A DNA stretch of 64,000 nt, taken from contig OY997592.1 of the NCBI GenBank assembly GCA_963921825.1, positions 26,949,730 through 27,013,729 of the forward strand, written 5' to 3'. Below the pieces are notes generated by a model. That model was not told where the DNA came from. It made no database searches and worked only from the letters and a program-made list of their open reading frames with translations. Position numbers and translations under genes: made by a program. Shown one piece after another: positions 10,749 through 63,888 of the stretch (position 1 is its first letter; every line of letters begins with the position of its first letter). This stretch comes from Erodium maritimum (taxonomy: Eukaryota > Streptophyta > Magnoliopsida > Geraniales > Geraniaceae).

Positions 10749-12424
10749 TGTTAGTGTTAGTGCCCGTAGTTCAATCCTAAATGTCCAAATGTATATATCA
10801 TCGTTAGCAATAAAATTAAAGCGGCTTTATATTACTTATGTGTTGGAGTAATATATCGATGTGTGCTCTGATCTATGCCCACCATGCGAATAGAACCATA
10901 GATCGAGATAGATCATACTCGATGGGTCCCTAGTCAACAAAGCTTCACTAGAAGCGACTAGTATGAAAGATGGCTCTTTATGGCTTACGTTCTGTTAGTC
11001 ATTGGAATGGGATTCCGGAGTCTGATCATAGATATCATGTGGGACATGATATTGGACGACCCGCCCTGAATATGTGCCATAGATTAAGTCATGAACATAT
11101 TCAGTGTTGTAGCTTGTCATGTATCCTTAGACCAAGGAGTCTTTGTGATCGCTATGTAGTCAACAACTGAGTTTGACCTGAGCCTAACGTTGTCCGTAAC
11201 AGGGCTTCCATAACGGCCAGGATTGGCTTGGGGACGGGCTACATGAGTGACACGAAAGACGGCTAAGGGATTTATCCCTCATACTAAGGTATGGGAAAGA
11301 TATCGGTTCTCGGCCACTTGATCGAGAGTGACTGGAAGAATAGCATGGCCATGCACATGATACTGGGTATCATATCTTCAGTCATCTCACATATCAAGGA
11401 ACGGTGATTGAGAATAATAAGGATGACGGCTCTATGCCTTATCTCAATCAGGATATCGGAGATAAAAGGATAATGACAGGGACGACGGAAAGGTTAGAAT
11501 CGATTGGTTCGATTCGCTATGTAGTGTCAGGCAATACTAAAGTATCGTTAGTTGCCACTTATATAGGATAAAGTAAAATGGGATTTTACGTTGATCTATC
11601 GACATGCATAGACCTAAGGGTCACACCGAAGGATGAAACTCATTGACACATTTATGGAGAATGGCCAAAAGAGAGTTGTCTCGGGACATGACCAAAACTG
11701 GGTTTTGGGTCATGTGCCCGTAAGTGAATAGGACATTACGGATCAAGACAAGGCTTGGAGTCTAGGGATTGATCGCGTTGGATAATGTTGGACATTTCCG
11801 GTATGAAAGGCTTGGAGGCGATGAGCACGTCACGGGACCTCGTTGGGAATGGCCATGGGCCATGTTCCAAGAGGCCCATGAAAGGCCCATGCAACCAAGG
11901 CCCATGGAACTAATTAATCAAGTCTTGATTAATTAGTACTAAGTAAGCAAGACAAGGATTAAGGTGTTGGTGATTCACCACCTAACCCATCTTGTCTTGC
12001 CATACTTAGCACCATGCTTGTCTTACTTCACACCATGCTTCACACCTTACTTGTCCTTGATGGTTGTTGATGGTTTAAGTCATCTTTTTCCTACAACAAA
12101 TCACAAGACAAGAATAGAAACACAACTTCTCTCCCTCTCACACTACAATTTCGAGTTTGGCACTTTTCCCCCCTCTTGTTGTGTTCTTGAGTCATCTAAA
12201 GAAGAACTACGTGGCTTTGATTCCAATTGGATACGTAGGCGTCTTGGAGACTCAAGCCGATCATCGTTTCTTTGGTGTTCTCTTCCTTTTCTTGAACTAG
12301 TTGGTAAGGAAACATCCATATTGTTTATTCTCTTGTGTATCTAATATTTGGTAGTGTTCTATGACATGGTCTCGAGTTATTTCCGCTGCAAGTATGTGTT
12401 CATACCCTCCATCGAGACCCAACA
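10749..12424 (+). repeat. A1 5' LTR
   Basis: TGTTAGTGTTAG to GAGACCCAACA. It carries a hairpin at 11686-11715 (ACATGACCAAAAC, loop TGG, GTTTTGGGTCATGT) and a near-perfect palindrome at 11910-11936 (CTAATTAATCAAG, one T, and the reverse complement). Reading frames of 66 and 126 codons in the LTR recur only because the LTR is repeated. Confidence 0.97.
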
Positions 12425-12425
12425 G

Positions 12426-12438
12426 TGGTATCAGAGCC
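12426..12438 (+). promoter_or_regulatory. A1 primer-binding site
   Basis: TGGTATCAGAGCC one base after the LTR, complementary to the 3' end of plant initiator tRNA-Met. Fully conserved here, in contrast to the damaged genes. Confidence 0.9.
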
Positions 12439-13970
12439 GTGCTACCTTCGGGATTCACAAGAGAACTTTCGGTTTTGCTTGCTAGTTTCGGTTTTGCATG
12501 TTAATTTGCTAAATTGTTTGATAACATGTTTTAAATTCTTGTTTATGGGTTTAATGCATGAAAAATGAATTTTTGAAAAGTTTATCAAATCTGGAATTTT
12601 TGAAAAAAATTTGATTTTTCGGGTCTCGGGAGCGGGACTCTCGAGGAGCCGAAACCGGGACCGAACGGGGCTCCGTTGGACGGAGCTAGGCCAAGCATGA
12701 CCATTGGATGGTCAATATGCCGAGCTAAACCGTTTTGTTAGTCATGACGAGTTTGGAACCGTCTTGATGAACTCAAAAATCAAATGTTCAAAAGTTTCAA
12801 TTTTGAACGGTTTCGATAAACCGAGTATCAAAAAATTTCGAAACTTGGCAATTAATTAAAACCGGAAAATCACATGATGTTTGATAACATGCTTGTTTGA
12901 TAACACGATGTGTGATGTGATGTTAGCATGGTGTACATAATAGCCCCGAGCTCAATTTAATTATTTATCGCTTTTCACGGCCTGCGAGCCGTTAGTGTTA
13001 GCGTGTAATTGTTCTTTCAAGGTGTGGTCATCGAACCACTTGTTTGTAATATTTATTTATTCCCGACCTGCGAGTCGTGTATTAAATTGTAATATTTTAC
13101 TCAAGATGAAGAAAGGGCGAAAAGGTCATTTGGTGGCTTTTCGGGTGTTGGCATCGGCTTGGAGTCGATGGAGCTCAAGAAGCTAGTGGGAGTTAGTTTA
13201 GGGGGCTATTATGTGCATATTTATCGCTTTATGCTTGGTTTAGTTTATGCATGATTAATTCTATGTGTTTTAGAATTGCATGCTTAACTTTATTTACCGA
13301 GCATATCATCTCACATGCAAAGATAAAATTGGAATTTTAATCCTTGTGTGTGAGCCCTTAGAATCGTCATTACATTGGATGTAGTTGACGGGTTCGAAGG
13401 AAGAATTACATTGGATGTAATTTGAGGCATCATTGCATTTGGAATGTAGTTGATGTGCTCATCGCATCTAGGATGTGTCAAAGTTTTAAACACAACCGGA
13501 CAAGTAAAAACGGGTCATGTCTGATACCTCCCAATTATCAACACCTTACTACCTCCCCGTCCTATGGGTGTCGTGCGCATTAGCGGAGCATCCATGGGAA
13601 AGCGGGGTAGTAGGTTTGGACGACATATGTGGGTGTCGTGCGCATTAGCGGAGCACCTACATAGTGACGGGCCATAGTTGAAAATTGGTGGACCCGACTA
13701 CGATTCTCAGCCTGAGGTTGAGCTAGGGTAACAGATAGGGTAAGCCGTGTACATAAGTGCATACCCTAGCCAAGAGTCACATTGGATGTGATTGGATGGA
13801 GTCCTACCTACATAGCTCGATTAAGTGGTGAGCATTAGTTCAGCTTAATCGAGTGAATCAAGGATCTTGGTTTCAGATTCTAAAGGTTTAGAATCGATTG
13901 TTGGTGTTTAAGCTTGATCTTCATAAAATTTATTCAGTTTACTGATTGAATTTTATCTGTTGTAGATCAA
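12439..13970 (+). other. A1 untranslated leader with repeated TTGGA-loop hairpins
   Basis: 1.5 kb without a credible ORF, between the primer site and the gag ATG. At 13369-13475 and 13777-13791 it has several small hairpins, two perfect: ATTACATTGGATGTAAT (13405-13421) and TCACATTGGATGTGA (13777-13791), sharing the loop TTGGA. Related hairpins are near 13369 and 13433. Retrotransposon packaging and dimerisation signals usually sit in this interval. Confidence 0.7.
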
Positions 13971-14485
13971 ATGGCAAATTCAGCGAACATTAATAGTTTG
14001 TCATTAAAAACCATTCTTGACAGGGTCAAGCTAAATGGGACAAACTATTTGGACTGGTACAGAATTTTGAGGATAGTCCTCAAGTCTGAACGCAAATAAT
14101 ATGTCCTTGACAAGGCTGTCTCTAAGACCATATCAGAGTTACATGAAGTGTCATTAACTGCTGAGAAGAATATCTCAAGGATCTGGGATCCAAGGATATT
14201 CTGATCGTCAACAAGGGAATTGGAAGTGGCATGGGCTGGGCCCATGCGCACTTGGCAGGAAAGATGAGACACCTGAGAATGTCTGCTTCTACTGCCAACA
14301 GCCTGGTCATTGGAACCGGGATTACAGGAAGTTCACGGCTGATCTGAAGAAGGGCAGTGGGACTGCGCCTTCATCAAATAGCCTGGATGATCTGAAGAAG
14401 GGCAGTAAGACTGCGCCTTCATCAGGAAACCTGGATGATCTAAGGAAGGGCGGTGGGACCGTGCCTTCAATCGGTATTAACTCTA
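13971..14485 (+). pseudogene. gag: A1 gag with the core domain deleted
   Basis: The ATG at 13971 gives MANSANINSLSLKTIL, then LNGTNYLDWYRILRIV, a normal copia gag N-terminus, with a TAA at 14097-14099. YVLDKAV is joined almost directly to SKTISELHEV, whereas relic A0 retains about 380 bp of gag core here. A frame change leads to the zinc knuckle at 14284-14325, where the last cysteine of CX2CX4HX4C is Tyr. Three 16-residue repeats follow. The core deletion, the Tyr and the frame change are shared with A2 and A3. Confidence 0.88.
14341..14484 (+). repeat. Three 48-bp in-frame repeats in A1 gag
   Basis: Units 14341-14388, 14389-14436 and 14437-14484 each encode a DLKKGSGTAPSS-like 16-residue module. 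Equivalent triplets are in A2 (31160-31303) and A3 (about 58836-58965, minus). Confidence 0.92.
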
Positions 14486-14499
14486 TAGAGCTACATCTC

Positions 14500-15830
14500 T
14501 CTACTTCCAAAGATTCATGGGTATTAGATACCATGATTGAATCTCACACATGCACTAATATATGGTGGCTGAAAGTAGGAGAGATTTGGAAAGCACGATA
14601 TGGACCTCAGAGTTGTGGCAACTGCTGTAGGATCCATGAGTCTTGCTTTGCCAAGAGGCCTTGTCTTAGTATTGTATAATGTATATTGCATACCTACTTT
14701 TAGTAGGAATATTATATCTGTATCCGTGTTTGACAAGGAAGGATATAATGTTAATATTGGAAATGGAGTTTTCAATGTTCTATGCAATGATATGTTTTAT
14801 ATACCAGTACTGACATGGTTGGAGGATTGTACATATTAGATATGGGTAACAATGCCTCAAGTTCTATATATTCCGTTAATACCAAGAGGTCTAAATCCAA
14901 CGATTTAAACCTAACTCTGTTATGGCACTGTCATTTGGGTCGCATAAACAAGAAGCGCCTATCAGCACTTCAGAAGTGCAGGCTTTCAGGTTCATTCGAA
15001 TTCCATTCGATCGATAGGTGCAAGGTTTGTTTGATGGGAAAAATGACTAAAGTGCCCTTTATCGATCGCGATGAAAGGGCGGGTGAATTATTGGGGCTGA
15101 TACACTCGAATGTGTTTAGACCAATAAGTTCACTTTCCAGGAGGGGTTTTAGCTACTTTATCACATTTACTGATGATTACAGTAAATATGGTTATGTCTA
15201 TTCGGTGAGACATAAGTCTGAAGCTTTTGATAAATTCAAAGAGTTTAAGACTATAGTAGAAAACCAGCTCGACAAAGGTATTAAGGCACTTCGATTGGAT
15301 CGAGGTGGAAAATACTTGACCACAGAGTTATTAGATCATCTAAGACAGAATGAGATCCTTTTGGAATGGACTCCTCCTAGGTCACTGTAGTTGAAAGGTG
15401 TAGCCAAACGGAGAAATCGGACATTGTTAGACAATGGTCTGTTCCATGATTAGTTGGACTGATCTCCCAATCTCTTTTAGGGGTTTTGCTCTAGAGACGA
15501 CCGCATTCATAGTGAATCGGGCTTCGACGAATGGTGTGGAAGGGACACCATTTTAAAAAATGGTACGGGATGATGCCCGCTTTGTCCTTCCTAAAGATTT
15601 GTGGTTGCGAGGCTTATGTGAAACATTTGGTTTCGACTAAGCTCGAACCAAGATCTGAGATATGCACCTTCGTGTGGTATCCCAAAGCAACAAGGGGATA
15701 CTATTTCTACAATCCTAGTGAGAACATGGTGTTCGTCGCTTGGGGTGGGGTCTTTATGGAAAAGAAGTTTTGTTTCCAAAGACGTCATTAGGAGGACTGT
15801 GCATCTCGAAGAAATTCAGGATAGTACAGA
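14500..15830 (+). pseudogene. pol: A1 protease and integrase remnant
   Basis: Protease: SWVLDTMIESH at about 14515-14550, with the catalytic D-T-G glycine replaced. GAG-pre-integrase: LLWHCHLGRINKKRLSAL (about 14917-14970) with a C..C pair near 15022. Integrase core: the first Asp is Asn (IHSNV, about 15101), then DDYSKYGY and LRLDRGGKYL; the catalytic Glu position is Lys (GVAKRRNRTL, about 15397). A TAG at about 15388 and a frameshift near 15435 follow. A connection region reads to 15789 (ICGCEAYVKHL, WGGVFMEKKFC). Confidence 0.88.
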
Positions 15831-15919
15831 TCTGTCTAAACCAATTGACAACCCAGTAGAAAGGAGCCAGAGATTGTCGTAGAGTGAGAACCAATTCCTG
15901 TTACAATTCCGGAAGGTCC

Positions 15920-17480
15920 AAGGCGATTTGAAAGGGTCAATCTTCCACCTCCAAGATATGGTATCCGGAGGTGACAATGAAGTCATGGTGGATCACGATG
16001 ATCCAGCCACCTTTCAAGAAGTCGTGGATGGGCCCGACTCCGAGTTATGGCTGGGAGCCATGAGGGAGGAAATGCAATCCATGTCGGACAACCGAGTCTG
16101 GGAACCGGTTGATCCCATCAATGGTGTGAGGTCCATAGGATGCAAATGGATCTTCAAGGTGAAGATGGACATGGACGGCAACCCTCTGACCTACAAAGCT
16201 CAACTGGTGGCGAAAGGTTATAGGCAGATCCAATGGATTGACTATGAGGAAACCTTCTCCTTAGTGGCTATGGTCAAAATCGATCCAAATTCTTCTTGAC
16301 ATAACTGCGTATCATAATTACGAGATATGGCAAGTGGATGTCAAAACCGCTTTCCTAAATGGAAATTTGACTGAGTACGTTTGTATGTCTCGGCCCAAAG
16401 GTTTTGACGATCCGAAGAATAAAGGAAAGATTTATAAGTTGTTGAAATCCATTTATGGATTGAAACGAACTTCTCGGAGTTGGATCCTTCGTTTTGATGA
16501 AGCTGTAATTGGATTTGGCTTAATCAAGAATGAGGATGAATCTTGCGTTTATAAGAAGGCTAGTGGGAGCAATATTACCTTTCTGGTTCTCATTGAAAAC
16601 GACATCCCAACCTTGCACGAGACTAAAGCTTGGTTGAGGAAGTGTTTTTCAATAAAGGACTTAGGTGATGCTTCTCATATCTTAAGGATTAAGATATGTA
16701 GAGATCGCACCAAGAGGGTCTTGGATTTAAGTCAGGGAACCTATGTGAACAAGGCATTGAGTAGGTTCTTAATGCTCGATTCAAAGAAAGGACTCTTACC
16801 CACTAGTCATGGCATTCATCTCAGCAAGACTCAGTGTCCTAAGACACCTGATGAGCTAAAAAGGATGATGAGAATCCTATGCGCCTGGGGGCAGGATCGA
16901 TCATATATGCCATGACATGTATGAGACCAGACGTCTCGTAAGCCTTATGTTGTACCAGTAGACATCATTCTAACCCGGGGGAAAGATGATGCTGAACTAG
17001 TCGTCGAAGGATGAGTAGACGCTAGTTTTCCAAGACAAATCCAGATGACTTTAGAAGTCAATCAGGATATGTGTTTACGCTGAATGACAGAGCTTTAGCT
17101 GGGAGAGCGTAAAGCAAGATATCATTGCCGAATCTACGACAGAGGCCAAGTACATGGATGCTGCAGAGGCAGCTAAGGAGGCTATGTGGATTTGGAAATT
17201 CATGGCAGGGCTGGGTGTAATTAAAAACCCATCCAGCCCGGTGAATCCATCTTGCGACAACACAAGGGTCATTGCGCAGGCTAAAAGCCTAGATCGTATA
17301 ACAAATCCGAACATGTACTGCGGCGTATCCACCTCATCAGATAAATACTGAACTGAGGTGAAGTGAAGATAACCGATATTGCAACAGATGATAACATAGC
17401 CAACCCTTTGACTAAGGCAGTGTCACTGCCTGAACATGTTAGACATGTAAAGTCGATGGGGACATATTGGAGTTTAGATT
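15920..17480 (+). pseudogene. pol: A1 reverse transcriptase (YVDD deleted) and RNase H remnant
   Basis: RT starts with TFQEVVDGPDSELWLGAM and CKWIFKVKMDMDG (to 16299), then MDVKTAFLNGNL from 16334 and LLKSIYGLKR. At about 16580-16600 the reading is TFLVLIENDIPT; relic A0 has TFLVLYVDGILVIGNDIPT, so seven residues including the catalytic YVDD box are missing in frame. The thumb runs to 16915, then broken RNase H (GYVFTLNDRA, STTEAKYMDAAEAAKEAMWIW-like) to about 17460. Confidence 0.9.
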
Positions 17481-17491
17481 GGAACTAGGGC

Positions 17492-17502
17492 AAGTGGGAG
17501 AT
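17492..17502 (+). promoter_or_regulatory. A1 polypurine tract
   Basis: AAGTGGGAGAT directly before the 3' LTR. Identical in A2 and A3 despite decayed coding sequence. Confidence 0.88.
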
Positions 17503-19178
17503 TGTTAGTCTTAGTGCCCGTAGTTCAATCCTAAATGTCCAAATGTATATATCATCGTTAGCAATAAAATTAAAGCGGCTTTATATTACTTATGTGTTGG
17601 AGTAATATATCGATGTGTGCTCTGATCTATGCCCACCATGCGAATAGAACCATAGATCGAGATAGATCACACTCGATGGGTCCCTAGTCAACAAAGCTTC
17701 ACTAGAAGCGACTAGTATGAAAGATGGCTCTTTATGGCTTACGTTCTGTTAGTCATTGGAATGGGATTCCGGAGTCTGATCATAGATATCATGTGGGACA
17801 TGATATTGGACGACCCGCCCTGAATATGTGCCATAGATTAAGTCATGAACATATTCAGTGTTGTAGCTTGTCATGTATCCTTAGACCAAGGAGTCTTTGT
17901 GATCGCTATGTAGTCAACAACTGAGTTTGACCTGAGCCTAACGTTGTCCGTAACATGGCTTCCATAACGGGCAGGATTGGCTTGGGGACGGGCTACATGA
18001 GTGACACGAAAGACGGCTAAGGGATTTATCCCTCATACTAAGGTATGGGAAAGATATCGGTTCTCGGCCACTTGATCGAGAGTGACTGGAAGAATAGCAT
18101 GGCCATGCACATGATACTGGGTATCATATCTTCAGTCATCTCACATATCAAGGAACGGTGATTGAGAATAATAAGGATGACGGCTCTATGCCTTATCTCA
18201 ATCAGGATATCGGAGATAAAAGGATAATGACAGGGACGACGGAAAGGTTAGAATCGATTGGTTCGAATCGCTATGTAGTGTCAGGCAATACTAAAGTCTC
18301 GTTAGTTGCCACTTATATAGGATAAAGTAAAATGGGATTTTACGTTGATCTATCGACATGCATAGACCTAAGGGTCACACCGAAGGATGAAACTCATTGA
18401 CACATTTATGGAGAATGGCCAAAAGAGAGTTGTCTCGGGACATGACCAAAACTGGGTTTTGGGTCATGTGCCCGTAAGTGAATAGGACATTACGGATCAA
18501 GACAAGGCTTGGAGTCTTGGGATTGATCGCGTTGGATAATGTTGGACATTTCCGGTATGGAAGGCTTGGAGGCGATGAGCACGTCACGGGACCTCATTGG
18601 GAATGGCCATGGGCCATGTTCCAAGAGGCCCATGAAAGGCCCATGCAACCAAGGCCCATGGAACTAATTAATCAAGTCTTGATTAATTAGTACTAAGTAA
18701 GCAAGACAAGGATTAAGGTGTTGGTGATTCACCACCTAACCCATCTTGTCTTGCCATACTTAGTACCATGCTTGTCTTACTTCACACCATGCTTCACACC
18801 TTACTTGTCCTTGATGGTTGTTGATGGTTTAAGTCATCTTTTTCCTACAACAAATCACAAGACAAGAATAGAAACACAACTTCTCTCCCTCTCACACTAC
18901 AATTTCGAGTTTGGCACTTTTCCCCCCTCTTGTTGTGTTCTTGAGTCATCTAAAGAAGAACTACGTGGCTTTGATTCCAATTGGATACGTAGGCGTCTTA
19001 GAGACTCAAGCCGATCATCGTTTCTTTGGTGTTCTCTTCCTTTTCTTGAACTAGTTGGTAAGGAAACATCTATATTGTTTATTCTCTTGTGTATCTAATA
19101 TTTGGTAGTGTTCTATGACATGGTCTCGAGTTATTTCCGCTGCAAGTATGTGTTCATACCCTCCATCGAGACCCAACA
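17503..19178 (+). repeat. A1 3' LTR
   Basis: 1676 bp, the same length as the 5' LTR. Carries the same internal hairpin and the 27-bp palindrome (18664-18690). Confidence 0.97.
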
Positions 19179-19183
19179 CTGCG

Positions 19184-20250
19184 GGCACGCCCAGCGTCCC
19201 ACCGGTCGTAGACCTGCCCACTGCGACCGCTCTAGACGAGCTGACCCGGATCGTGCAGAGCTTGGTGGCGATCATCGCCCGTAGGGAGTCTGCATCGCCA
19301 GCTCCGGAGACAGCAACCGTTCTAGCGAGGCCCGTTCAGGCCGAAGGCCATACAGCCCGGACACTGCTGGATTTCCTGAAGCTGGGTATACCTACGTTCG
19401 TCGGGGAATCGAACCCCGACATAGCTGAGAGATGGCTGGAGCAGGTCACTCGGGACCTGGACACGTCAGGCATCGAGGACGGTCACACAAGGTGTCCTTT
19501 GCAGCTCATCAGCTGAGGGACAGCGCCTACCACTGGTGGGGGCGCGTACGGGACAGAGTCGGGGATGACTGTAGTATCTTCGTGACGGTCTTTCTGGAGC
19601 ATTATTTCCCCGAGTCGGCCAGGGTGGACCGACATCAGCAGTTCCTGGAACTGCAACAGGACAGGGCGTCAGTGGCAGAGTATGAGGCCAGATTCACGGC
19701 CCTAACCCGATTTGCACCATAAATGGTGGCGACAGAGCGGAACCGTTGCCAGCGGTTCGAGGCGGGGCTGAGGCTGATGATTCGGGATCGAGTCCTCGCC
19801 CTGAGGTTGCGGGTTTACCCAGAGCTCGTAGACACTGCAGCGACAGTGGAGTAGGGTCTCCGAGAGGCAGCGAGGACCCGTGAGGTTCGGCAGCGACCGA
19901 ACAGTGTTGCGGGACCGTCTGAGTCCCGAGATCCGAGGAGGCAGAGGACTCCAAGGTTCTTTCGGCCACAGGCTCAGCAGGGCGGAGCGAGACAGATGGA
20001 GTTGGTGGCGTCAGTAGGGCCAATCGCTTCAGAGAGGGGGCCGGTATGTTATATCTGCAGACAGCCACGCCACATGTGGCGAGAGTTTCCGATAGGAGGA
20101 GGGCCCACGTCACCACCAGTGGTCAGACAGACGGACCAGGAAGGGGACTGAGGTGCGATGGTGCCAGGTGCCACCAGTGCGGCCGGTTTGGACACCTAGT
20201 TAGGGCGTGCCCTGAGCGGGGCAGGGAGACGTCGGTGCATCGATTGTAGT
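19184..20250 (+). pseudogene. gag: T1 gag, C-terminal part
   Basis: Continues the frame from 10748: TPSVPPV, DELTRIVQSLVAII, then the retrotransposon gag domain (LLDFLKLGIPTFVGE, WLEQVTRDL). A frameshift near 19485-19495 changes to HQLRDSAYHWWGRV. Stops follow at 19720-19722 and 19852-19854. The first zinc knuckle has lost its last cysteine (CYICRQPRHMWREF). The second is intact, CHQCGRFGHLVRAC at about 20169-20210, but in another frame. T2 is the better-preserved relative. Confidence 0.88.
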
Positions 20251-20379
20251 TTTCGAACATAGTGCAGTTACCCCGGGCTCGCCAGCATCAGAGTTAGCCG
20301 TCGAGGTTCTCGTAGCCGTCCACGAGCGCGCCAGTTCCGAGACAGCAGTAGAGGTCTGGATAGCCAGCAGTCAGTGCGT

Positions 20380-23782: not shown

Positions 23783-23820
23783 GGTACGTCTTTTTTAAAT
23801 TTTGCGGACGAAATTCCTTT

Positions 23821-29283: not shown

Positions 29284-29284
29284 G

Positions 29285-50140: not shown

Positions 50141-50149
50141 CTGGAGGTG

Positions 50150-51600: not shown

Positions 51601-51610
51601 AGTGGGAGAT

Positions 51611-51730
51611 TGCTAGTATTAGTGCCCGTAGCGCAATCATAAATATCCAAATGTATAAAATAGTCGCTTGCAATAAATGTAAAGAGGCTTTATATTAATT
51701 ATATGTTGGAGTCATATATCGAAGTGTGTT
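51611..51730 (+). repeat. A0 3' LTR, first 120 bp only
   Basis: TGCTAGTATTAGTGCCCGTAGC follows the polypurine tract AAGTGGGAGAT (51600-51610). It is cut near 51730, within TCGAAGTGTGTT, and joined to internal RT sequence of another copy (A4). Confidence 0.82.
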
Positions 51731-52688: not shown

Positions 52689-54432
52689 TGTGTTATTACA
52701 TCTAAGTTAGTAATGTTTGTGTCAAGTAAGATGTTATCTAGGATGCCATCAGACATCATGTGCGTGCACAAAAACAAAGATAGAAAAGATATCAAGCTAG
52801 GTGTCTGTGTATCTAGTGCTGTAGATTTGTTTCCTAAACCAAAAGATATTCATGGGATAGAGATTTATTCTTTTAGGAAGTAAGTTATGTTTCCCAAACT
52901 TAATGATACTTATATAATATATATTTGATCTATTTAGGAAGTATTCTATCACGAGGAAACTTGAAGATACGTTTCCTAAGTGTTTTAAGATTTGTTTCTT
53001 AGATATGATATACTTCTGCGATTTGTTTCCATCTTTGAAGATACTATTATGATAGATTTCAGGTCTATCTAGGAAAGATTCTAACGCAAGGAAACAAAAA
53101 GATTTGGGTTCTTAGTTTAGATATACTTATGTGATTTGTTTCCTAAACTTGAAGATATTCATGTATAGAGTTCTACTAATTTTAGGAAATATTCTTGTGC
53201 AAGGAAACTTAATGATTCAGTAAGATCAAAACTCCAAGGATTAAGGGAACATAAGAGTGAACGTTTACAAGCTGTATGAGCTATATATCTTGTGAAGATA
53301 TTCAGAGCTCCGATTGATCGTTGTCTTATCAAAGATGTTAGACCATATGTCATTTGACATCTTGAGCGTGCATGTTTCCTAGTTTGAAGAAAAGTATCGC
53401 GTGTGTCCTAATTTGAAGATAAGTATCTTATGTTTCCCAGTTTGAAGATACTTCTATTCCAAACATCATATTTGTTTGAGTATTCTTTCCTAACTTAAAT
53501 ACTTCTATGTTAAAAGATCTATTTGTTTTGGAATTGTTCCAGGTTATGGAAACTTCAAGATTGAGTTAGATCGTGACTCTAATTTTTGAGAACCCTAGTG
53601 AGGCACGAATACAATAGAGGTAAACTTCCTCGATCTTTATAAGATCCTTCCCAATCTCTTTAGACTGAGATTGTACTCGTGGGAGGAAAGGTCCTAGCTT
53701 CTCAATAAGTCTATCATAAAAAGCCTAAGGGATTTCCAATAGCTGTTGGTCGTCATTGTTCTACCGATTTTTGTTACATGTCGACATCATCATCGCCATC
53801 TATCAAAGCCATTACTAGTACAAGCGTAACTACTGTAACTATATTTTGTTCGTTGTTCTTTGTTCATGACTTCAGAGCTCCTAAGCATGTTGGACTAGCG
53901 TGTTGGGAGGTTGGATGTTCTGAATAAAAATGGACGTGTTTGTGCTCAAACTCTATCCGTAATTGAATGAGTGATTGAGTTATTTTGGGTTGTAATCTAT
54001 GTTTGCTGGTTCACGAAGAACACCCTTGAAGAACAAGACCACAAGGCTAAAACGATACTAAAGGTCTCGAAGTAATCCAAGACTGAAGGGCTTGAAAATT
54101 AGGATCGAGTGAGGAGCTCGGATTCAGGGGAAGCCATAAGATAGGTTTTGCACTTTGTAATAGTAGCATAGGTTTGATCTGGAGGATCCAAACTTGTATG
54201 TTTTGAGTGATTAAGTGATAGTGAAAACTATTCCACTAGCAAAGTTACCCAGATGTAGGTGGTGATGCACTGAGCTGGGTAACAAACTTGCGTTTCTTTA
54301 TTGTATTTTTTATTATCGTTTATATCTCTATACCGTTCTTACGCAAGATGTCTATCCACATGTCCTAACATCTTGTAAGGCATCTTAGTGTCTGCCGACA
54401 AGTAACATCTTGGACGACATCTTGCTATTGCA
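52689..54432. repeat. Probable solo LTR of an unrelated (SIRE/Maximus-like) copia element
   Basis: About 1.74 kb of non-coding DNA interrupts A4 between RNase H and the polypurine tract. It begins TGTGTTATTACATC and ends near TATTGCA. CATCTTG-type motifs occur near the right end (54345-54425). ACCCAGATGTAGGTGG..CTGAGCTGGGTAACAAACTTG, followed by a T-rich tract, resembles the R-U5 part of SIRE-type LTRs. Many TTTCCTAA..TTGAAGATA repeats lie at 52820-53460. No clear 5-bp duplication, so both ends and identity are tentative. Confidence 0.4.
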
Positions 54433-54439
54433 CCTAACT

Positions 54440-54881
54440 AGAATTTTTAGATTGAAATTTAGATTGGAACTAAGGGAGAGTGGAAGATTGTTAGTCGTAG
54501 TGCCCACAGCTTAATCGTAAATCTCCAAATGTATAAATCATTGTTTTCAATAAATGTAAATCGGCTTAATATTACTTATATGTTGGAGTAGTATATCAAA
54601 GTGTGTTCTGATCTATTCCCACCACACGAAGTAGAACCATAGATTGAGATGGAACACACTCGATGGGTCCCTAGTCAATAAAGCTTCATTAGAAGAAATT
54701 AGTATGAAAGATGACTCTTTATGGATCGGTTCTATTAGTCATTGGAATGGGATTCTGGAGTATGATCATAGATCTCATGTTGGACATGATATTGGACAAC
54801 CCAACCTAAATATGTGCCATGGCGAAGGAAGAACGTTGACACGAGACATGCCAAAAACTGGGTTTTTGGTCATGTGCCCAT
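54440..54881 (+). repeat. A4 polypurine tract and internally deleted 3' LTR
   Basis: ATTTAGATTGGAACTAAGG then GAGAGTGGAAGAT lead into TGTTAGTCGTAGTGCCC at 54490. LTR bases of about 1-337 are followed near 54826 by bases of about 900-978 (a deletion of about 560 bp). The fragment stops within the LTR hairpin region and abuts A3 in the opposite orientation at about 54881/54882. Confidence 0.8.
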
Positions 54882-55841
54882 TACAAAACCAGTTTTGGCC
54901 ATGTCCCGAGACAACTCCCTTTTGGCCATTCTCCATAAATGTGTCAATGAGTTTTACCCTCCGGTGTGACCCTTAGGTTTATGCATGTCAATAGATCAAC
55001 GTAAAATCTCATTTTACTTGATCCTATTTAAGTGGCAACTAACGAGACTTTACTATTGTCTAACACTGCATAACGAATCGACCCTGTCGATTCTAACCTT
55101 TCCGTCGTCTATATCACTATCCGTTTATCTCCGATATCCTGATTGAGATAAGGCATAGAGCCGTCATCCTTATTATTCTCAATCACTGTTCCTTGATATG
55201 TGTGAAGACTGGATATATGATACCCAGTATCATGTGCATGGCCATGCTATTCTTTCAGTCACTCTCGATCAAGCGGCCGAGAACCGATATCTTTCCCATA
55301 CCTCAGTATGAGGGATAAATCCCTTAGCCGTCTTTCGTGTCACTCATGTAGCCCGTCCCCAAGCCAATCCTGGCCGTTATGGAAGCCCTGTTATGGACAA
55401 CGTTAGGCTGAGGTCAAACTCAGTTGTTGACTACATAGCGATCACAAATACTACTTGGTCTAAGGATATATGACAAGCTACGACACTGAATATGTTCATA
55501 ACTTAATCTATGGCACATATTCAGGGCGGGTCGTCCAATATCATGTCCCACATGATATCTATTATCAGACTCCGGAATCCCATTCCAATGACTAACAGAA
55601 CGTAAGCCATAAAGAGCCATCTTTCATACTAGTCGCTTTTAATGAAGCTTTGTTGACTGGGGACCCATCGAGTGTGATCTATCTCGATCTATAGTTCTAT
55701 TTACGTTGTGGACATAGATCAGATCACATATCGATATATTACTCCAACACATAAGTAATATAAAGCCGGTTTAATTTTATTGCTAACGATGATATATACA
55801 TTTGGGCATTTAGGATTGATCTACGGGCACTAAGACTAACA
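54882..55841 (-). repeat. A3 3' LTR, truncated
   Basis: The LTR start (reverse complement of CTAACA) is at 55836-55841. It extends leftward for about 960 bp to the LTR hairpin, where it is joined head-to-head to A4. The missing part is the LTR end. Confidence 0.9.
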
Positions 55842-55852
55842 ATCTCCCACTT
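55842..55852 (-). promoter_or_regulatory. A3 polypurine tract
   Basis: Minus-strand AAGTGGGAGAT directly before the 3' LTR, identical to A1 and A2. Confidence 0.87.
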
Positions 55853-55959
55853 GCCCTAATTCCAATCTAAACTCCAATATGTCCCCATCGACTTTACATG
55901 TCTAACATGTTTAGGCAGCGACATTTCCTTAGTCAAAGGGTTAGCTATGTTATCATATG

Positions 55960-57320
55960 TTGCAATATAGGTTAATCTTCACTTCACCTCGGTTTAGTAT
56001 TTCTCTGATGAGGTGGATATGTCGTAGTACATGTTTGGATTTGTTATGCGATTTGGGATTTTAGCTTGCGTAATGGCCCTTGTGTTGTCGCAAAATGGAT
56101 TCACCGGGCTGGATGGGTTTTTAATTACACCCAACCCTGCCGTGAAATTCCAAATAAACATAGCCTCCTTAGCTTCTTCTACAGCATCCATGTACTTGGC
56201 CTCTATCGTAGATTCAGCGACGGTATCTTGGTTTACGCTTTCCCAGCTAAAGCTATGTGATTCAGCTTAAACTCATATCATGACTGACTTCCAAAGTCAT
56301 CTGGATTTCCTTGGAAAACTAGCGTCTACTCATCCTTCGACGACTAGTTCAGCATCATCTTTCCCCCGGGTTAGACTGATGTCTACTGGTACAACGTAAG
56401 GCTTACGAGACGGCCGGTCTCGTACATGTCATGGCATATATGATCGATCCTGCCTCTAGGCGCATGAGATTCGCATCATCCTTTTCATCTCATCAGGTGT
56501 CTTAGGACACTGAGTCTTGTTGAGATGAATGTCATGACTAGTGGGTAAGAGTCCTTTCTTTGAATCGAGCATTGAGAACCTACTCAATGCCTTAAATCCA
56601 AGACCCTCTTGGTGCGATCTCTACATATCTTAATCCCTAAGATATAAGAGCGTCGCCTAAGTCCTTTATTGAGAAATACTTCCTCAACCAAGCTTGAGTC
56701 TCGTGCAAGGTTGTGATGTCGTTTTCAATGAGAACCAGAAAGGTAATCTTTCTCCCACTAGCCTTCTATAAACGCAAGATTCATCCTCGCTCTTGATTAA
56801 GCCAAATCCAATTACAACTTCATCAAAACGAAGGTTCCAACTTTGAGAAGCTTGTTTCCATCCATAAATGGATTTCAACAACTTACAAATCTTTCCTTAT
56901 TCTTCGGATCGACAAAACCTTCTGGCTGAGACATGAAACGTCCTCAGTCAAACTTCCATTCAGGATGGCGGTTTTGACATCCACTTGTCATATCTTGTAA
57001 TTATGATACGCAGTTATGTCAAGAAGAATTTGGATTGATTTTGACCATAGCCCCTAGGGAGAAGGTTTCCTCCTAGTCAATCCATTGGATCTGCCTATAA
57101 CCTTTCGCCACCAGTCAAGCTTTGTAGGTCAGAGGGTTGCCGTCCATGTCCATCTTCACCTTGAAGATCCATTTGCATCCGATGGTCCTCACACCATTTA
57201 TGGGATCAACCAGTTCCCAGACTTGGTTGTCCGACATGGATTGCATTTCCTCCCTCATGGCTCCCAGTCATAACTCGGAGTCGGGCCCATCCACGACTTC
57301 TTGAAAGGTGGCTGGATTAT
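55960..57320 (-). pseudogene. pol: A3 reverse transcriptase (YVDD deleted) and RNase H remnant
   Basis: The minus strand reads TFQEVVDGPDSEL from about 57310 and CKWIFKVKMDMDGN. After a frame break comes LKSIYGWKQASQSWNLRFDE (to 56684). Near 56745-56715 the sequence goes from FWF (out of frame) to ENDI, with the same 21-bp loss of the catalytic box as A1 and A2: GGTTCTCATTGAAAACGAC. Thumb and RNase H follow (VEEAKEAMFIWNF, PFCDNTRAITQAK, 56191-55994), with stops. Confidence 0.88.
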
Positions 57321-57468
57321 CGTGATCCACCATGACTTCATTGTCTCCTCCGGACACCATATCTTTGAGGTGGACGACTGATCCTTTCAGATCGCCTTGG
57401 ACCTTCCAGAATTGTAATAAGAATTGGTTCTTACTCTACGACCATCTCTTGCTCCCTTTCTAGTGTGT

Positions 57469-58420
57469 TTAGACGGATCTGTACCATCCTGAATTTATTT
57501 GCGATGCACAGTCCTCCCAATGACGTCTTTGGAAACAAAACTTCTTTTCCATAAAGACCCCACCCCAAGTGACGAACACCATGTTCTCACTGGGTTTGTA
57601 GAAGTGGTATCCCCTTGTTTCTTTGGGATACCCCACGAAGGTACTTATCTCATATCTTTGTTCGAGCTTAGTCGAAACCAAATGTTTCACATAATCCTCG
57701 CAACCACAAATATTTAGGAAGGACAAAGTGGGCATCCTCCCATGGCATTTCTAAATTGGTGTCCCTTCCACAACCTTCATCGGAGCCCAATTCACTATGA
57801 ATGCGGTCGTCTCTAGAGCATAACCCCAGAAAGAGATTGGGAGATCAGTCCAACTGATCATGGATCGGACCGTATCCAATAAAGTCTGATTTCTTCGCTT
57901 GGACACAACATTCAACTGCGGTGTTCCGGAAGGAGTCCATTCTAAAAAGATCCCGCTATCCACCAGATGATCTAAAACCTCCGTGGTTAAGTATTTTCCA
58001 CCTCGATCCAATCGAAATGTCTTAATACTTTTCCCGAGCGGGTTTTCTACTTCAGTCTTGAACTCTTTGAATTTATCAAAAGGCTTCAGACTTATGTCTT
58101 ATTGAACAGACATAACCATATCTACTATAATCGTTAGTAAATGTGATGAAGTAGCTAAAACCCCTCTTGGCTAGCGAATCTATTGGTCCACACACATCCG
58201 AGTGTATCAGCCCTAATAATTCACCCACCCTTTCACCGCGACCGATAAAGGGCGCTTTAGTCATTTTTCCCATCAAACAAGCCTTGCACCTATCGATCGA
58301 ATGAAATTCGAATGGACCTGAAAGCCCGCGCTTCTGAACTGCTGATAAGCGCTTCTTGTTTATGCGGCCCAAATGACAGTGCCATAACAGAGTTAGGTTT
58401 AAATCATACTATTTAGACCT
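57469..58420 (-). pseudogene. pol: A3 integrase remnant
   Basis: GRINKKRLSAVQKRGL and CKACLMGKMTKAPF (58372-58255). Core: IHSDVCGPID (first Asp), FTNDYSRYGY, then from 58011 DRGGKYLTTEVL and WTPSGTPQLNVVSKRRNQ. The catalytic Glu position is Lys. This is the longest continuous stretch of integrase among the A copies (IN frame 58011-57751, WTDLPISFWGYALETTAF). The connection region is open at 57735-57469. Confidence 0.88.
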
Positions 58421-58429
58421 CTTCGTATT

Positions 58430-59330
58430 AACCTAATATATAGAACTTGAGGCATTGTTACCCATATCTAATATGTACAATCCTCCAACCAAGTTAGTAG
58501 TAGCATAAAACATATCATTGCATAAAACATTGAAAACTCCATTTCCAATATTAACATTATATCCTTCCTTGTCAAACACAGATGCAGATATAATATTCCT
58601 ACTAAAAGTAGGTATGCAATATACATTATACAATACTAAGACAAGGCCACTTGGAAAAGAAAGACTCATGGATCCTACAGCAGTTGCCACAACTTTGAGG
58701 TCCACTTCGTGCTTTCCAAACCTCTCCAACTTTCAGCCACTATATGTTAGTGGATGTGTGAGATTCAGTCCTAGTATCTAATACTCATGAATCTTTGGAA
58801 GTAGAGAGATGTAGCTCTATATAGTTAATACCGGATGATGGCACGGTCCCATCGCCCTTCCTTAGATCATCCGGGTTTCCTGATAAAGGCGCAGTCCTAC
58901 TGTCCTTCTTCAGATCATCCAGGCTATCTAATGAAGACGCAGTCCCACTACCCTTCTTCAGATCAGTCGTGAACTTCGTATAATTCCGATTCCAATGACC
59001 AGGCTGTTGGCAGTAGGAGCAGACATTCTCAGGTGTCTCATCTTTCCCTCTAAGTACGCATGGGCCCCGCCCTTACCACTTCCAATTCCCTTGTTGACCA
59101 TCAGAATACCCTTGGGTCCCAAATCCCTGATATTCTTCTCAGCAGTTAATGACACTTCATGTAACTCTGATATGGTCTTAGACACAACCTTGTCATGAAC
59201 ATATTCTTTGCGATCAGACTTGAGGATTATCCTCAAAATTCTGTACCAGTCCAAATAGTTTATCCCATTTAGTTTGACCCTATTAAGAATGTTTTTAATG
59301 ACAAACTATTAATGTTCGCTGAATTTGCAA
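58430..59330 (-). pseudogene. gag: A3 gag (core deleted) and protease remnant
   Basis: The start codon has mutated (ATG to ATT at about 59330). NGTNYLDWYRILRII, YVHDKVVSKTISELHEV shows the family core deletion. The zinc knuckle CSYCQQPGHWNRNY (about 59027-58985) ends in Tyr instead of Cys. Then 48-bp repeats (about 58965-58836) and LDTRTESHT at about 58790-58755, with Arg for the DTG glycine and a stop replacing the preceding Trp. The protease C-terminal block is open at 58729-58433. Confidence 0.87.
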
Positions 59331-59500
59331 TTTGATCTACAACAGATAAAATTCAATCAGTAAACTGAACAAATTTTATGAAGATCAAGCTTAAACACCA
59401 ACAATCGATTCTATACCTTTAGAATCAAAAACCAAGATCCTTGATTCACTCGATCAAGCTGAACGAAGGCTCACCACTCAATCGAGCTATGTAGGTAGGA

Positions 59501-60970
59501 CCCCGTCTAATCACATCCAATGTGACTCTTGGCTAGGGTATGTACTTAAGTACACGGCTTACCGTTTCTGATACCCTAGCTCAAACCTAGCTGAGAATCA
59601 TAGTCGGATCCACCAATTTTCAACTATGACCCGCCACTATGTAGGTGCTCCGCTAAGGAGCACGACACCCACATATGTCGTCCAAACGTACTACCCCGCT
59701 TTCCCATGGATGCTCCGCTGAGGCGCACGATACCCATAGGACGAGGAGGTAGTAAGTTGTTGATAATTGGGAGGTATCGGACATGACCCGTTTTTAGTTG
59801 TCCGGTTGTGTTTAAAACTTTTGGCACATCCTAGATGCGATTAGCACATCAACTACATTCCAAATGTAATGATACCTCCAATTACATCCAATGTAATTCT
59901 TCCTTCGAACCCGTCAACTACATCTAATGTAATGACGGTTCTAAGGGCTCACAAACAAGGATTAAAATTCCAATTTTATCTTTGCATGTGAGGTGATATG
60001 CTTGGTAAATAAAGTTAAGCATGCAATTCTAATCCAACACATAGAATTAATCATGCATAAATTAAACCAAGCATAAAGCGATAAATGTGCACATAAAAGC
60101 CCCCTAAACTAACTCCCACTAGCTTCTTGAGCTCCATCGACTCCAAGCCGATGCCAACACCCGAAAAGCCACCAAATGACATTTTCTCCCTTTCTTCGTC
60201 TTGAGCAAAACATTACAATTTAATACACCAAATGACCCCGTCTAATCACATCCAATGTGAATCTTGGCTAGTTTATGTACTTAAGTACACGGCTTACCGT
60301 TTCTGATACCCTAGCTCAAACCTAGCTGAGAATCGTAGTCGGGTCCACCAATTTTCAAGTATGACCCGCCACTATGTAGGTGCTCCACTAAGGAGCACGA
60401 CACCCACATATGTCGTCCAAACCTACTACCCCGCTTTCCCATGGATGCTCCGCTGAGGCGCACGATACCCATAGGACGAGGAGGTAGGAAGTTGTTGATA
60501 ATTGGGAGGTATCGGACATGACCCATTTTTAGTTGTCCGGTTGTGTTTAAAACTTTTGGCACATCCTAGATGCGATTAGCACATCAACTACATTCCAAAT
60601 GTAATGATACCTCCAATTACATCCAATGTAATTCTTCCTTCGAACCCGTCAACTACATCTAATGTAATGACGATTCTAAGGGCTCACAAACAAGGATTAA
60701 AATTCCAATTTTATCTTTGCATGTGAGGTGATATGCTTGGTAAATAAAGTTAAGCATGCAATTCTAATCCAACACATAGAATTAATCATGCATCAATTAA
60801 ACCAAGCATAAAGCGATAAATGTGCACATAATAGCCCCCTAAACTAACTCCCACTAGCTTCTTGAGCTCCATCGACTCCAAGCCGATGCCAACACCCGAA
60901 AAGCCACCAAATGACATTTTCGCCCTTTCTTCGTCTTGAGCAAAATATTACAATTTAATACACGACTCGC
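59501..60970. repeat. 735-bp tandem duplication within the A3 leader
   Basis: Copy 1 is 59501-60235, copy 2 is 60236-about 60970. The two copies are nearly identical. At the junction, TTTAATACAC of copy 1 runs into CAAATGACCCCG, so unit ends are joined with a short filler, CAAATGA, that also occurs nearby (CCACCAAATGACATTTT). The duplicated stretch includes the TTGGA-loop hairpins. Confidence 0.92.
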
Positions 60971-61193
60971 AGGTCGGGAATGAATAAATATTACAAAACA
61001 GTGATTCGACGACCACACCTTGAAAGAATAATTACACGCTAACTTTAACGGCTCGTAGGCCGTGAAAAGCGATAAACAATTAAATCGAGCTCAGGGCTAT
61101 TATGTACACCATGCCAACATCACATCACATATCGTGTTATCAAACAAGCATGTTATCAAACATCATGTGATTTTCCGGTTTTAATTAATAGCC

Positions 61194-61209
61194 AAGTTTC
61201 GAAATTTTT
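61194..61209. repeat. Target-site duplication, left, of the LINE-derived insertion
   Basis: AAGTTTCGAAATTTTT, exactly repeated at 61815-61830. Confidence 0.92.
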
Positions 61210-61645
61210 GGGCCCTGTCGCTACGAAAAAACAGGACGCGCAACCCCAGGATGGAGACCAAATTAGGGAGTTCGGTTATCAGGGTAGTCCGTGGAGGGAA
61301 GCCTTAGAAAAACCGATCTCTAAAGTTGAGCCAAAGAAACGCGGACGTCCAAAGAAAGGTCAGCCGAAGGTGATCGCCCAGCCAGTGGTCGTGTATCAGA
61401 CAAGAGTCAGGGCTGCCGATAAATTTGGACGTTTCATTGTGAACGTTTCTAAAAAAGATAGCTCGGGTAATTGGAACCATAGCTCCAAGGTTTGTAGAAA
61501 GGCAGTCGACCTTTATTCTTTGAGGCTGGCTCAGTACAAGCAGGGCTCTGAGGATGGGAACGAGGAGCACTTGGACTCGAGTGTAGAACAAGCTTTAACA
61601 CCCGTTCCTGTTGCTAATCGGTTTTCTTGTTTTGAATCCGATTAG
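61210..61645 (+). pseudogene. ORF fragment with AT-hook, probably LINE ORF1 C-terminus
   Basis: Open from the insertion edge with no ATG at its start, so it is a 5'-truncated frame of about 144 residues ending at TAG 61643-61645. Visible: a KKRGRPKKGQPK AT-hook-like motif near residues 43-54, a basic middle part and an acidic tail ending NRFSCFESD. The NRFxxxE ending and position before an L1-like tail suggest LINE ORF1, but a retroposed host AT-hook gene is not excluded. No zinc knuckle or reverse-transcriptase motif is seen. Confidence 0.55.
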
Positions 61646-61814
61646 TTATGAGGCAAGGTGTTTTCTGTTCTGTTTTTTGTTTTTGTTTCCCGGTTTGTTT
61701 GTTGCTTTTTGTAGCTGTTCTGGTTTGACGAAAGGTCCTTACGGATCTGCTCTTGGTATGTGTCTACTCTTTATAGACCATATCCTTAATAAACTTTCGC
61801 TTATCAAAAAAACA
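61210..61814 (+). mobile_element. 605-bp LINE-derived retroposon carrying an AT-hook ORF fragment
   Basis: Bounded by perfect 16-bp duplications and ending in TTAATAAACTTTCGCTTATCAAAAAAACA, typical of target-primed reverse transcription by a plant L1. It has no reverse transcriptase: an ORF fragment is followed directly by a 3' UTR of about 165 bp. It inserted into the A3 leader after A3 itself had arrived. Confidence 0.88.
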
Positions 61815-61830
61815 AAGTTTCGAAATTTTT
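61815..61830. repeat. Target-site duplication, right, of the LINE-derived insertion
   Basis: AAGTTTCGAAATTTTT, identical to 61194-61209. Confidence 0.92.
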
Positions 61831-62213
61831 TGATGCTCGGTTTATCGAAACCGTTCAAAAATGAAACTTTTGAACATTTGATCTTCGAGTTCGTCAGGAC
61901 GGTTCCAAACTCGTCATAACTAAAAATGCGGTTTAGCCTTGGCATATCAACCATCCAATGGTCATGCTTGGCCTATCTCCGTCCAACGGAGCCCCATTCG
62001 GTCCCGATTTCGGCTCCCCGAGAGTCCCGCTCCCGAGACCCGAAAAATCAAAAAAAAATTCAAAATTTCCAGATTTGAAAAACTTTTCAAAAAATCATTT
62101 TTCATGCATTAAATCCATAAACAAGAATTTAAAACATGTTACAAACAATTTAACAAATTAACATGTCAAAACCGAAACTTTCAACACCGTCTTGTGAATC
62201 CTGAAGGTAGCAC

Positions 62214-62226
62214 GGCTCTGACACCA
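62214..62226 (-). promoter_or_regulatory. A3 primer-binding site
   Basis: Minus strand TGGTGTCAGAGCC one base after the LTR end; one change (A to G) from the A1 site. Confidence 0.82.
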
Positions 62227-62227
62227 C

Positions 62228-63888
62228 TATTGGGTCTCTTGGTAGGGTTGGAGATGAACCAACTCGCAGCGTAAAATCAATGAAAACCAAGAGACGATTA
62301 AAACCATGAAACAACTAACAAAGAATTGATTCACAAAAGAAAAATTCAGCACTATTTCTAACCAAAACAAGAACACCGGTTAACGAATGATTGGCTTGAG
62401 TCTCCAAGACGACTACGTATCCACATGGGAATCAAAGCCACGTAGTTCTTCTCTTTGAGGACTCAAGAACACAGAGATGGAGGTGGGAGCTTGCCAAACC
62501 CGAAATTGTAGGGAGAGAGGGAGAGAAGTTGTGTTTTCTATTCTTGTCTAGTGCTTGTTATGTTGAAAAAAGATGACTTAAACATAACAAACCTCATACT
62601 TGTCCAACTAAAGGCATGGGTCAAGCATGGTGAGAGTAAGGTGTAAATAGGATAAAGTATGGCTAGATAAGATGGGGTTAGGTGGTGAATCACCAACACC
62701 TTAATCCTTGTCATGCTTACTTAGTACTAATTAATCAAGACTTGACTAATTAGTTACATGGGCCTTGGTTGCATGGGCCTTTCATGGGCCTGTTGTAACA
62801 TGGCCCGTGGCCATTTCCAACGAGGTGCCGTGATTCGCTCATCGCCTCCAACATTATCTGATGCGATCAATCCCAAGACTCCAAGTCTTGTCTCGATCCG
62901 TAAAGTCCTATTCACTTATGAGAACATGACCCAAAACCCAGTTTTGGTCATTTCCAGAGACAACTCCCTTTTGGTCATTCTCAATAAATGTGTCAATGAG
63001 TTTCACCCTCCGGTGTGACCCTTAGGCTTATGCATGTCAATAGATCAACGTAAAATCTCATTTTACTTGATCCTATTTAAGTGGCAACTAACAAGACTTT
63101 AGTATTGCCTGACACTGCATAACGAATAGACCCTGTCGAATCTAACCTTTCCGTCGTCTATGTCACTATCCTTTTAGCTCTGATATCCTGATTGAGATGA
63201 GGAATAGAGCCGTCATCCTTATTATTCTCAATCACTGTTCCTTGATATGTGAGATGACTGAATATATGATACTCAGTATCATGTGCATGGCCATGCTATT
63301 CTTTCAGTCACCCTCTATCAAGCGGCCGAGAACCGATATCTTTCCCATACCTCAGTATGAGGGATAAATCCCTTATCCGTCTTTTGTGTCACTCATGTAG
63401 CCCGTCCCCAAGCCAATTCTGGCCGTTATGGAAGCCCTGTTACGGACAATGTTAGGCTCAGGTCAAACTCAGTTGTTGACTACATAGCAATCACAAAGAC
63501 TCCTTAGTCTAAGGATACATGACAACCTATGACACTGAATATGTTCATGACTTAATCTATGGCACATATTCAAGGCGGGTCGTCCAATATCATGTCCCAC
63601 ATGATATCTATGATCAGACTCCGGAATCCCATTCCAATGACTAATAGAACGTAAGCCATAAAGAGCCATCTTTCATACTACTCGCTTTTAATGAAGCTTT
63701 GTTGACTAGGGACCCATCGAGTGTGATATATCTCGATCTATGGTTCTATTCGCATTGCGGGCATAGATCAGATCACACATCGATATATTACTCCAACACA
63801 TAAGTAATATAAAGCCGCTTTAATTTTATTGCTAACGATGATTTACATTTGGACATTTAGGATTGAACTACGGGCACTAAGACTAACA
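62228..63888 (-). repeat. A3 5' LTR
   Basis: 1661 bp; LTR start at 63888 (TGTTAGTCTTAG on the minus strand), end CCCAATA at 62228. The 27-bp palindrome near 62725-62752 is partly degraded. The last third resembles the A2 LTR subtype. Confidence 0.92.

Follow-up and report, generated by a model that had tools for sequence, protein, structure and literature searches.

Shared deletion junctions in three copia copies of Erodium maritimum point to a retrotransposon lineage copied with proteins supplied in trans

We analysed one stretch of Erodium maritimum DNA (64,000 nucleotides; contig OY997592.1, positions 26,949,730 to 27,013,729), hereafter the window, and focused on three related Ty1/copia retrotransposon copies in it, A1, A2 and A3, which carry the same disabling deletions. 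Self-BLAST, used for repeat structure, showed the window to be a stack of nested plant long terminal repeat (LTR) retrotransposons, and the element comparisons below are among those within this single 64-kb window: A1 to A3, the related element A0, and the gypsy elements B1 and B2. A0 keeps the gag core and the integrase catalytic glutamate, yet is itself a relic. A first-pass annotation of this DNA had confined A0 to about 48 kb and described it as retaining its gag core. The retention stands and the confinement does not, because the A0 5' LTR starts near 6806 (counted by eye) and the element is split. The elements and their target-site duplications (TSDs) are as follows.

6806..54850, + strand: A0, older relic of a related copia element, split by B1, A2 and B2; ends near the junction with A3
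6847..26682, + strand: B1, gypsy element in the A0 5' LTR, holding A1; TSD CTAAA; LTR stretches 89.8% alike
10749..19178, + strand: A1, youngest full-length copy, nested in B1; TSD CTGCG
10749..12424, + strand: 5' LTR of A1
12425..12437, + strand: primer-binding site (PBS) region after the A1 5' LTR, GTGGTATCAGAGC; one substitution each in A2 and A3
17483..17502, + strand: polypurine tract (PPT) before the A1 3' LTR; one difference each in A2 and A3 over 20 nt
17503..19178, + strand: 3' LTR of A1
27581..35976, + strand: A2, full-length copy in the A0 5' LTR downstream of B1; LTRs of 1703 and 1670 bp
36973..47070, + strand: B2, gypsy element in A0, between the A0 5' LTR and A0 gag; TSD TCAAT; LTR pair 94.8% alike
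54885..63888, − strand: A3, with its 3' LTR shortened to 957 bp and an internal tandem duplication at 59499-60963

The recognisable domains of A1 follow the order gag_pre-integrs, rve, SH3_retrovirus and RVT_2, with integrase before reverse transcriptase (RT) as in Ty1/copia elements; the rve match, at 31.7 bits, falls just below the cutoff of 32.6. The A1 PBS presumably is of the initiator-methionine tRNA type. The lesions of the A1 coding region are as follows.

14118..14150, + strand: junction of the gag-core deletion (same position in A2, 30939, and A3, 59185 on the − strand)
14290..14330, + strand: zinc knuckle with the last Cys changed to Tyr
14521..14535, + strand: protease active site, DTG changed to DTM (DTR in A2, 31340, and A3, 58784 on the − strand)
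15400..15411, + strand: integrase catalytic Glu changed to Lys
16580..16603, + strand: junction of a 21-bp in-frame RT deletion that removed YVDD and three further residues
16969..16990, + strand: junction of a 76-nt deletion between RT and RNase H (also in A2, 33772, and A3, 56375 on the − strand; not in A0)

Three deletions, of the gag core, of 21 bp in RT and of 76 nt in the RT/RNase H region, are common to A1, A2 and A3 and have the same junctions in each. At the 21-bp deletion, a 24-nt string is letter-for-letter the same at 16580, 33383 and 56741 (− strand) and is 21 nt shorter than A0, in which the box reads YVDG. This agrees with the first-pass annotation, which had reported an identical in-frame loss of YVDD from all three copies. 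It had also reported the gag core to be missing from A1 to A3 and kept in A0, and indeed the deletion has a single junction position, with a few substitutions surrounding it among the three copies, and the A0 gag core matches Retrotran_gag_2 (E 1.8e-11, 48348-48683). The 76-nt deletion adds a further common lesion to those listed in that annotation. With the same three deletion junctions at separate sites, its proposal of a common defective ancestor is well founded. In addition, in-frame stops interrupt the frame-assigned parts of all four elements (5 in A1, 13 in A2, 12 in A3 and 16 in A0).

To place these lesions among natural proteins, we compared the coding pieces of A1 with their relatives. 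The RT piece had 610 relatives, the best 120 of which were 50-71% identical, and the named matches among those 120 were from flowering plants. The stretch bearing the YVDD box was kept in 119 of these 120: 110 matched the pattern and 9 were substituted at full length. The remaining relative (P0109, a copia protein of Tanacetum coccineum) has lost the YVDD stretch in a separate event, through a larger deletion whose junction differs. The pattern for the 76-nt stretch found it in five of the best 120 RT relatives, and four of these five had 23 residues there. These counts support reading the two RT lesions as losses. Searches for the exact LTR-end motif in viral contigs and for A1 among plasmid records gave no matches.

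The substitutions carry less weight than the deletions. As previously described, the final Cys of the zinc knuckle is Tyr in all three copies (in A1 the zf-CCHC match covers positions 1-15 of 18, E 0.00049, and its 20.5 bits lie just below the cutoff of 20.8), and the Gly of the protease DTG is replaced by Met in A1 and by Arg in A2 and A3. Because these are single substitutions, and because the alignment gave no recognisable A0 counterpart of the zinc-knuckle and protease stretch kept in A1 to A3, their direction cannot be polarised here. The integrase site is Lys in A1, A2 and A3 and Glu in A0, as the first-pass annotation had it, and what weakened was the value of this lesion as a shared event. 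A1 and A2 have GCC-AAA as codon context, A3 has TCC-AAG and A0 has TCC-GAA, and the codon lies in a short patch in which A3 stands apart.

15342..15442, + strand: A3 mosaic patch, holding the integrase Glu-to-Lys codon; A3 strongly unlike A1 and A2

Sites at which A3 is the odd copy make up 25 of 100 inside the patch and 261 of 6507 outside it, and a scan for such clusters gave a log-likelihood ratio (LLR) of 26.4, the highest of 500 shuffles being 10.2. Among the 66 natural integrases that matched at least three copies in this region, 42 matched A3 best, 18 A0 and 6 A2. Natural integrases with a readable Glu site had Glu in 26 of 27 cases and Lys in one; these come from the best 120 of 302 matches, 93 of which either did not extend over it or went unrecognised by the pattern. 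Named matches among the same 120 were from plants, nearly all Tanacetum, except P0193 and P0228, which are labelled bacteria and are probably contamination. Since the site is a CpG (judged from A0), the A3 codon differs and A3 is mosaic there, we do not count Glu-to-Lys as a proven common event. On this weak evidence the change may have recurred and need not be one event. The CpG and the differing A3 codon, together with the Lys-bearing relative and the separate loss of YVDD in P0109, are what could be said for an independent origin of all the lesions, after insertion of three once-intact copies. Such an origin is refuted by the three deletions, whose junctions agree in every copy, and A1 is too young to have acquired so many changes after insertion. 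We give this explanation almost no credence, although individual substitutions may still have arisen in this way.

The insertion sites and ages of the copies were compared. The LTRs of A1 are 1676 bp each and differ at 12 sites (6 transitions and 6 transversions) with no indel, giving a Kimura two-parameter (K2P) distance of 0.0072, and the element is flanked by a perfect TSD, CTGCG, at 10744-10748 and 19179-19183; the equal LTRs, the dozen differences and the perfect TSD had all been noted before. A related uninterrupted form of the A1 target is present in B2 at 41818-41870. LTR distances of A2 (0.0464) and A3 (0.0624, over 955 sites of the common LTR stretch) are larger, so that LTR divergence makes A1 the youngest of the three. 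A1 lies in a gypsy interior and A2 has A0 LTR on either side, with the uninterrupted form of its target site in the A0 3' LTR. Because these flanks differ, A1 and A2 are not duplicates of one locus, and segmental duplication, which the first-pass annotation had named as a finding that would count against it, is excluded for this pair. The 5' flank of A3, 112 bp inside the window, had no other match in the window (best other E 2.7), and A3 thus lies in neither the A1 nor the A2 target as far as is visible. A tandem segmental duplication of A1 and A2 was suggested by a near-constant repeat spacing of about 16.8 kb and was rejected, because self-BLAST shows nested insertions; the spacing arises partly because gypsy LTRs stand upstream of both copies.

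A broader version of that idea is that segmental duplication or gene conversion, rather than retrotransposition of a defective RNA, spread the lesions. Mosaic patches do show exchange between copies or relatives. However, A1 carries a TSD of its own within the interior of a gypsy element, A2 sits in an A0 LTR and the flanks are unrelated, and divergence is fairly even along most of the length, unlike patchwise conversion. We consider this explanation very improbable.

Outside the mosaic tracts, internal K2P distances are 0.084 (A1-A2), 0.079 (A1-A3) and 0.092 (A2-A3), with private change of about 3-4% per copy. Because the A1 LTR distance is far smaller than these, most of the A1 branch (about nine tenths by simple arithmetic, assuming equal rates before and after insertion) predates the A1 insertion. 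LTRs are taken to change at 1.3e-8 substitutions per site per year. On the same assumption of equal rates, this would place the ancestor common to the three internal regions at about 3.3 million years and the A1 insertion at about 0.28 million years.

If the lineage was copied while defective, its coding region should have changed as neutral sequence does. On the A1 branch there were 45 nonsynonymous and 18 synonymous single changes (neutral expectation 0.761 nonsynonymous, p = 0.38), spread 21/22/24 over the three codon positions. The A2 branch had 65:26 (p = 0.32) and the A3 branch 66:25 (p = 0.46). This test covered 903 codons and included the A3 mosaic patch; conflicting frame votes in 165 of 2972 columns were settled by majority or the columns dropped. 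When A0 was compared with the state agreed among A1 to A3, codon positions gave 113/83/124 (p = 0.014), a weak third-position excess of the sort that constraint would produce. In the drift of the lineage itself we detect no coding constraint, with modest power (63 changes on the A1 branch).

The 5' region of A1 is of a different type from that of A2 and A3.

12004..12472, + strand: A1 mosaic tract, comprising the 3' part of the LTR, the PBS and about 48 nt past the LTR; type unlike A2 and A3

The tract runs for about 470 bp from the 3' third of the LTR past the PBS, and its LTR part recurs in the A1 3' LTR at 18758-19178. Within it A1 is the odd copy at 94 of 450 sites, compared with 191 of 6157 elsewhere (scan LLR 92.7, highest of 500 shuffles 10.3). 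The same scan for A2 found no patch, its best value being reached by 72 of 500 shuffles. In the tract the K2P distance is 0.331 for A1-A2, 0.317 for A1-A3 and 0.106 for A2-A3; outside the two mosaic tracts distances are 0.055-0.092. A second internal alignment used one copy of the tandem-duplicated part of A3. No TATA or poly(A)-like motif by which R could be placed was found in or near the tract.

During reverse transcription the 5' end of the RNA serves as template for the R-U5 segment in each LTR, so replacement of that end in one RNA by a template switch gives the tract pattern. Since A1, A2 and A3 all hold the deletions, the exchange would postdate the death of the lineage. A1 is chimeric, and the pattern suggests that the lineage, already dead, recombined with another RNA. 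Fast divergence of this part of the LTR in the A1 line would do without recombination. In its favour, the window holds no donor, and A0, where aligned (A1 12229-12688), is 30-33% unlike A1, A2 and A3 alike, so that divergence is possible in this part of the LTR. Against such an explanation, the A2-A3 distance of 0.106 is near that of other regions while the A1 distances reach 0.32-0.33, the borders are sharp and the scan value exceeds all 500 shuffles. We therefore judge fast divergence improbable. A0 was tried as the donor and rejected, as it is about 30% different over the aligned part and in 11980-12429 agrees with A1 about as often as with the A2/A3 pair.

Taken together, we consider it very likely that A1 to A3 belong to a non-autonomous Ty1/copia lineage that is protein-dead and was copied with proteins supplied in trans. 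Such a lineage predicts separate insertion sites, three common deletion junctions, neutral change and retained LTR ends, PBS and PPT, and all were observed. We propose that the deletions removed the gag core, the catalytic box of RT and a portion of the RT/RNase H region from an ancestor that would have kept its LTRs, PBS, PPT and probably a packaging signal. Proteins of an intact relative would then have packaged, reverse transcribed and integrated the RNA of the lineage. The copies reached separate sites, the last of them recently, as LTR identity shows. In either the A1 or the A2/A3 line, the RNA 5' region (the 3' part of the LTR, the PBS and the first leader bases) appears to have been swapped for that of a different type of LTR, and a template switch between RNAs packaged together would be the simplest route; the tract itself is observed, and the mechanism and donor are what we propose from it. 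The first-pass annotation had stated that the family must have been moved in trans; trans-mobilisation is the best-supported reading, but "must" is too strong for an inference, albeit a strong one, in which no helper was seen.

Several observations weigh against this reading. Neither a helper nor any copy from beyond the window was seen, the element comparisons having covered the window, and a sample of three is small. With no clean TSD at A2 and the 3' flank of A3 lost, A1 is the sole textbook insertion. Loss of the YVDD box alone is not unique, given P0109, and the nonsynonymous fraction is slightly under the neutral 0.76 on all branches (0.714, 0.714 and 0.725; none significant). Finally, at the A1-odd sites of 11980-12429, A0 agrees with A1 at 30, with the A2/A3 pair at 26 and with neither, or has a gap, at 29. 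Because A0 sides about equally with each, the direction of the tract exchange cannot be polarised.

It is also conceivable that the helper proteins came from sister copies within the family that were still intact and that A1 to A3 were ordinary defective copies and occasional hitch-hikers, not a long-lived separate non-autonomous lineage. Old members of Onsen re-enter replication by recombination in Arabidopsis, according to the part of PMC5668417 that deals with them, and three copies cannot separate this account from the one we favour. The three deletions common to all copies and the neutral A1 branch argue that the lineage was dead while it was copied. We find the hitch-hiker account rather unlikely; it is a variant of trans-mobilisation and overlaps our preferred explanation of a protein-dead lineage copied in trans.

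If the lineage was copied in trans, the A1 tract raises a further possibility, which we offer tentatively: that the dead lineage, in its A1 or its A2/A3 line, switched helper by taking up another LTR 3' part, PBS and leader start, and with them the expression, priming or packaging signals of a different autonomous family. Such a switch, if true, would explain why A1 was still moving about 1.5-2 million years (at the LTR rate given above) later than A2 and A3 settled. As the youngest copy has a chimeric 5' region, the helper switching that has been proposed for non-autonomous elements can be tested here through the donor family. More broadly, this single 64-kb window offers a compact case of an LTR retrotransposon lineage that is mobile without working proteins.

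We then compared A1 to A3 with known non-autonomous elements. Large retrotransposon derivatives (LARDs) have an internal region without recognisable coding remains, and terminal-repeat retrotransposons in miniature (TRIMs) are short elements with short LTRs. Like A1 to A3 they are non-autonomous and moved in trans; unlike them they lack pol wholly. A1 is neither, as had been stated before: it is 8.4 kb long with 1.7-kb LTRs, and its decayed pol is recognisable in gag-pre-integrase, integrase and RT pieces. From their similar element and LTR size, we take the Angela lineage as a lead only. The likeness of A1 to A3 to non-autonomous Angela copies lies in their common disabling lesions at independent insertion sites and in a coding region that was unconstrained while copies moved (on the A1 branch, with the modest power noted above). 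In wheat, the sections of PMC9744471 on Angela describe non-autonomous copia elements of partner-like size with coding regions full of frameshifts and stops, mobilised by autonomous partners; there the trees of LTRs and of internal regions conflict, and switches of host through gene conversion or template switching were proposed. As described there, Angela is the same kind of element, alike in anatomy and similar in history, and differs in comprising genome-wide populations with named partners, compared with three copies here.

BARE2 of barley, as portrayed in parts of PMC3735527 and PMC9744471, is a copia subfamily that produces no Gag and whose RNA is packaged in BARE1 particles. Its other genes are described in those parts as intact; pol of A1 to A3 is not, as it has lost the RT box and contains frame changes as well as in-frame stops, so that RT and more are destroyed and all the enzymes must be borrowed. 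In rice, Tos17 is reported, in the relevant portion of PMC3977881, as an active copia element without gag; A1 to A3 additionally lack the RT catalytic box. Onsen provides a parallel for the tract, with chimeric LTRs formed by pairwise recombination, most likely between co-packaged RNAs (the same part of PMC5668417). The recombinants described there were seen directly in new insertions and extrachromosomal DNA, whereas here recombination is read from one old chimera. TARE1 of tomato was considered as the closest parallel and rejected, since the mutation named in the portion of PMC3701649 that concerns it lies in the LTR end. A1 to A3 are thus a new example of a mode for which wheat, barley and other plants have provided earlier cases.

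Other features of the window concern the neighbouring elements and later rearrangements. The gypsy element B1 matches RVP_2, RVT_1 and SH3_Tf2-1 and keeps long pol open reading frames (ORFs) at 19183-23833 (protease, RT with FVDD and the integrase C-terminal region) despite the A1 insertion in its interior. B2 has LTRs of 3.3 kb and an interior of only about 3.5 kb, with a 414-aa gag ORF and apparently no RT or integrase; its alignment to the B1 interior breaks off within the protease ORF, at B1 20768, without reaching RT. B2 is perhaps a gag-bearing non-autonomous element resembling TR-GAGs, and B1 is a possible partner type for it. Movement of TR-GAGs in Arabidopsis is reported in the part of PMC8704663 that treats them. 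The LTRs of the B-type gypsy elements contain 57-bp tandem repeats (8517-8981, 25381-25905, about 38.6-39.3 kb and about 45.4-46.1 kb) that vary between copies.

At 54780-54900 the 3' LTRs of A0 and A3 meet head to head with the remainder of both lost: the 957-bp A3 3' LTR adjoins the start of the A0 3' LTR, and the junction sequence appears hairpin-like by eye. This is likely an inverted-repeat deletion. The tandem duplication in A3 (59499-60963) has a unit of about 730 bp with copies 97.9% alike and, because it is less diverged than the A3 LTR pair, is probably younger than the A3 insertion. In A0 an RT/RNase H stretch occurs twice within 50725-52608 (81% alike, offset 1010 bp), followed by about 1.8 kb that has no match of at least 200 bp in the window. 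Outside the named elements, AT-rich DNA at 4649-5507 forms a tandem repeat with a period of about 287 bp.

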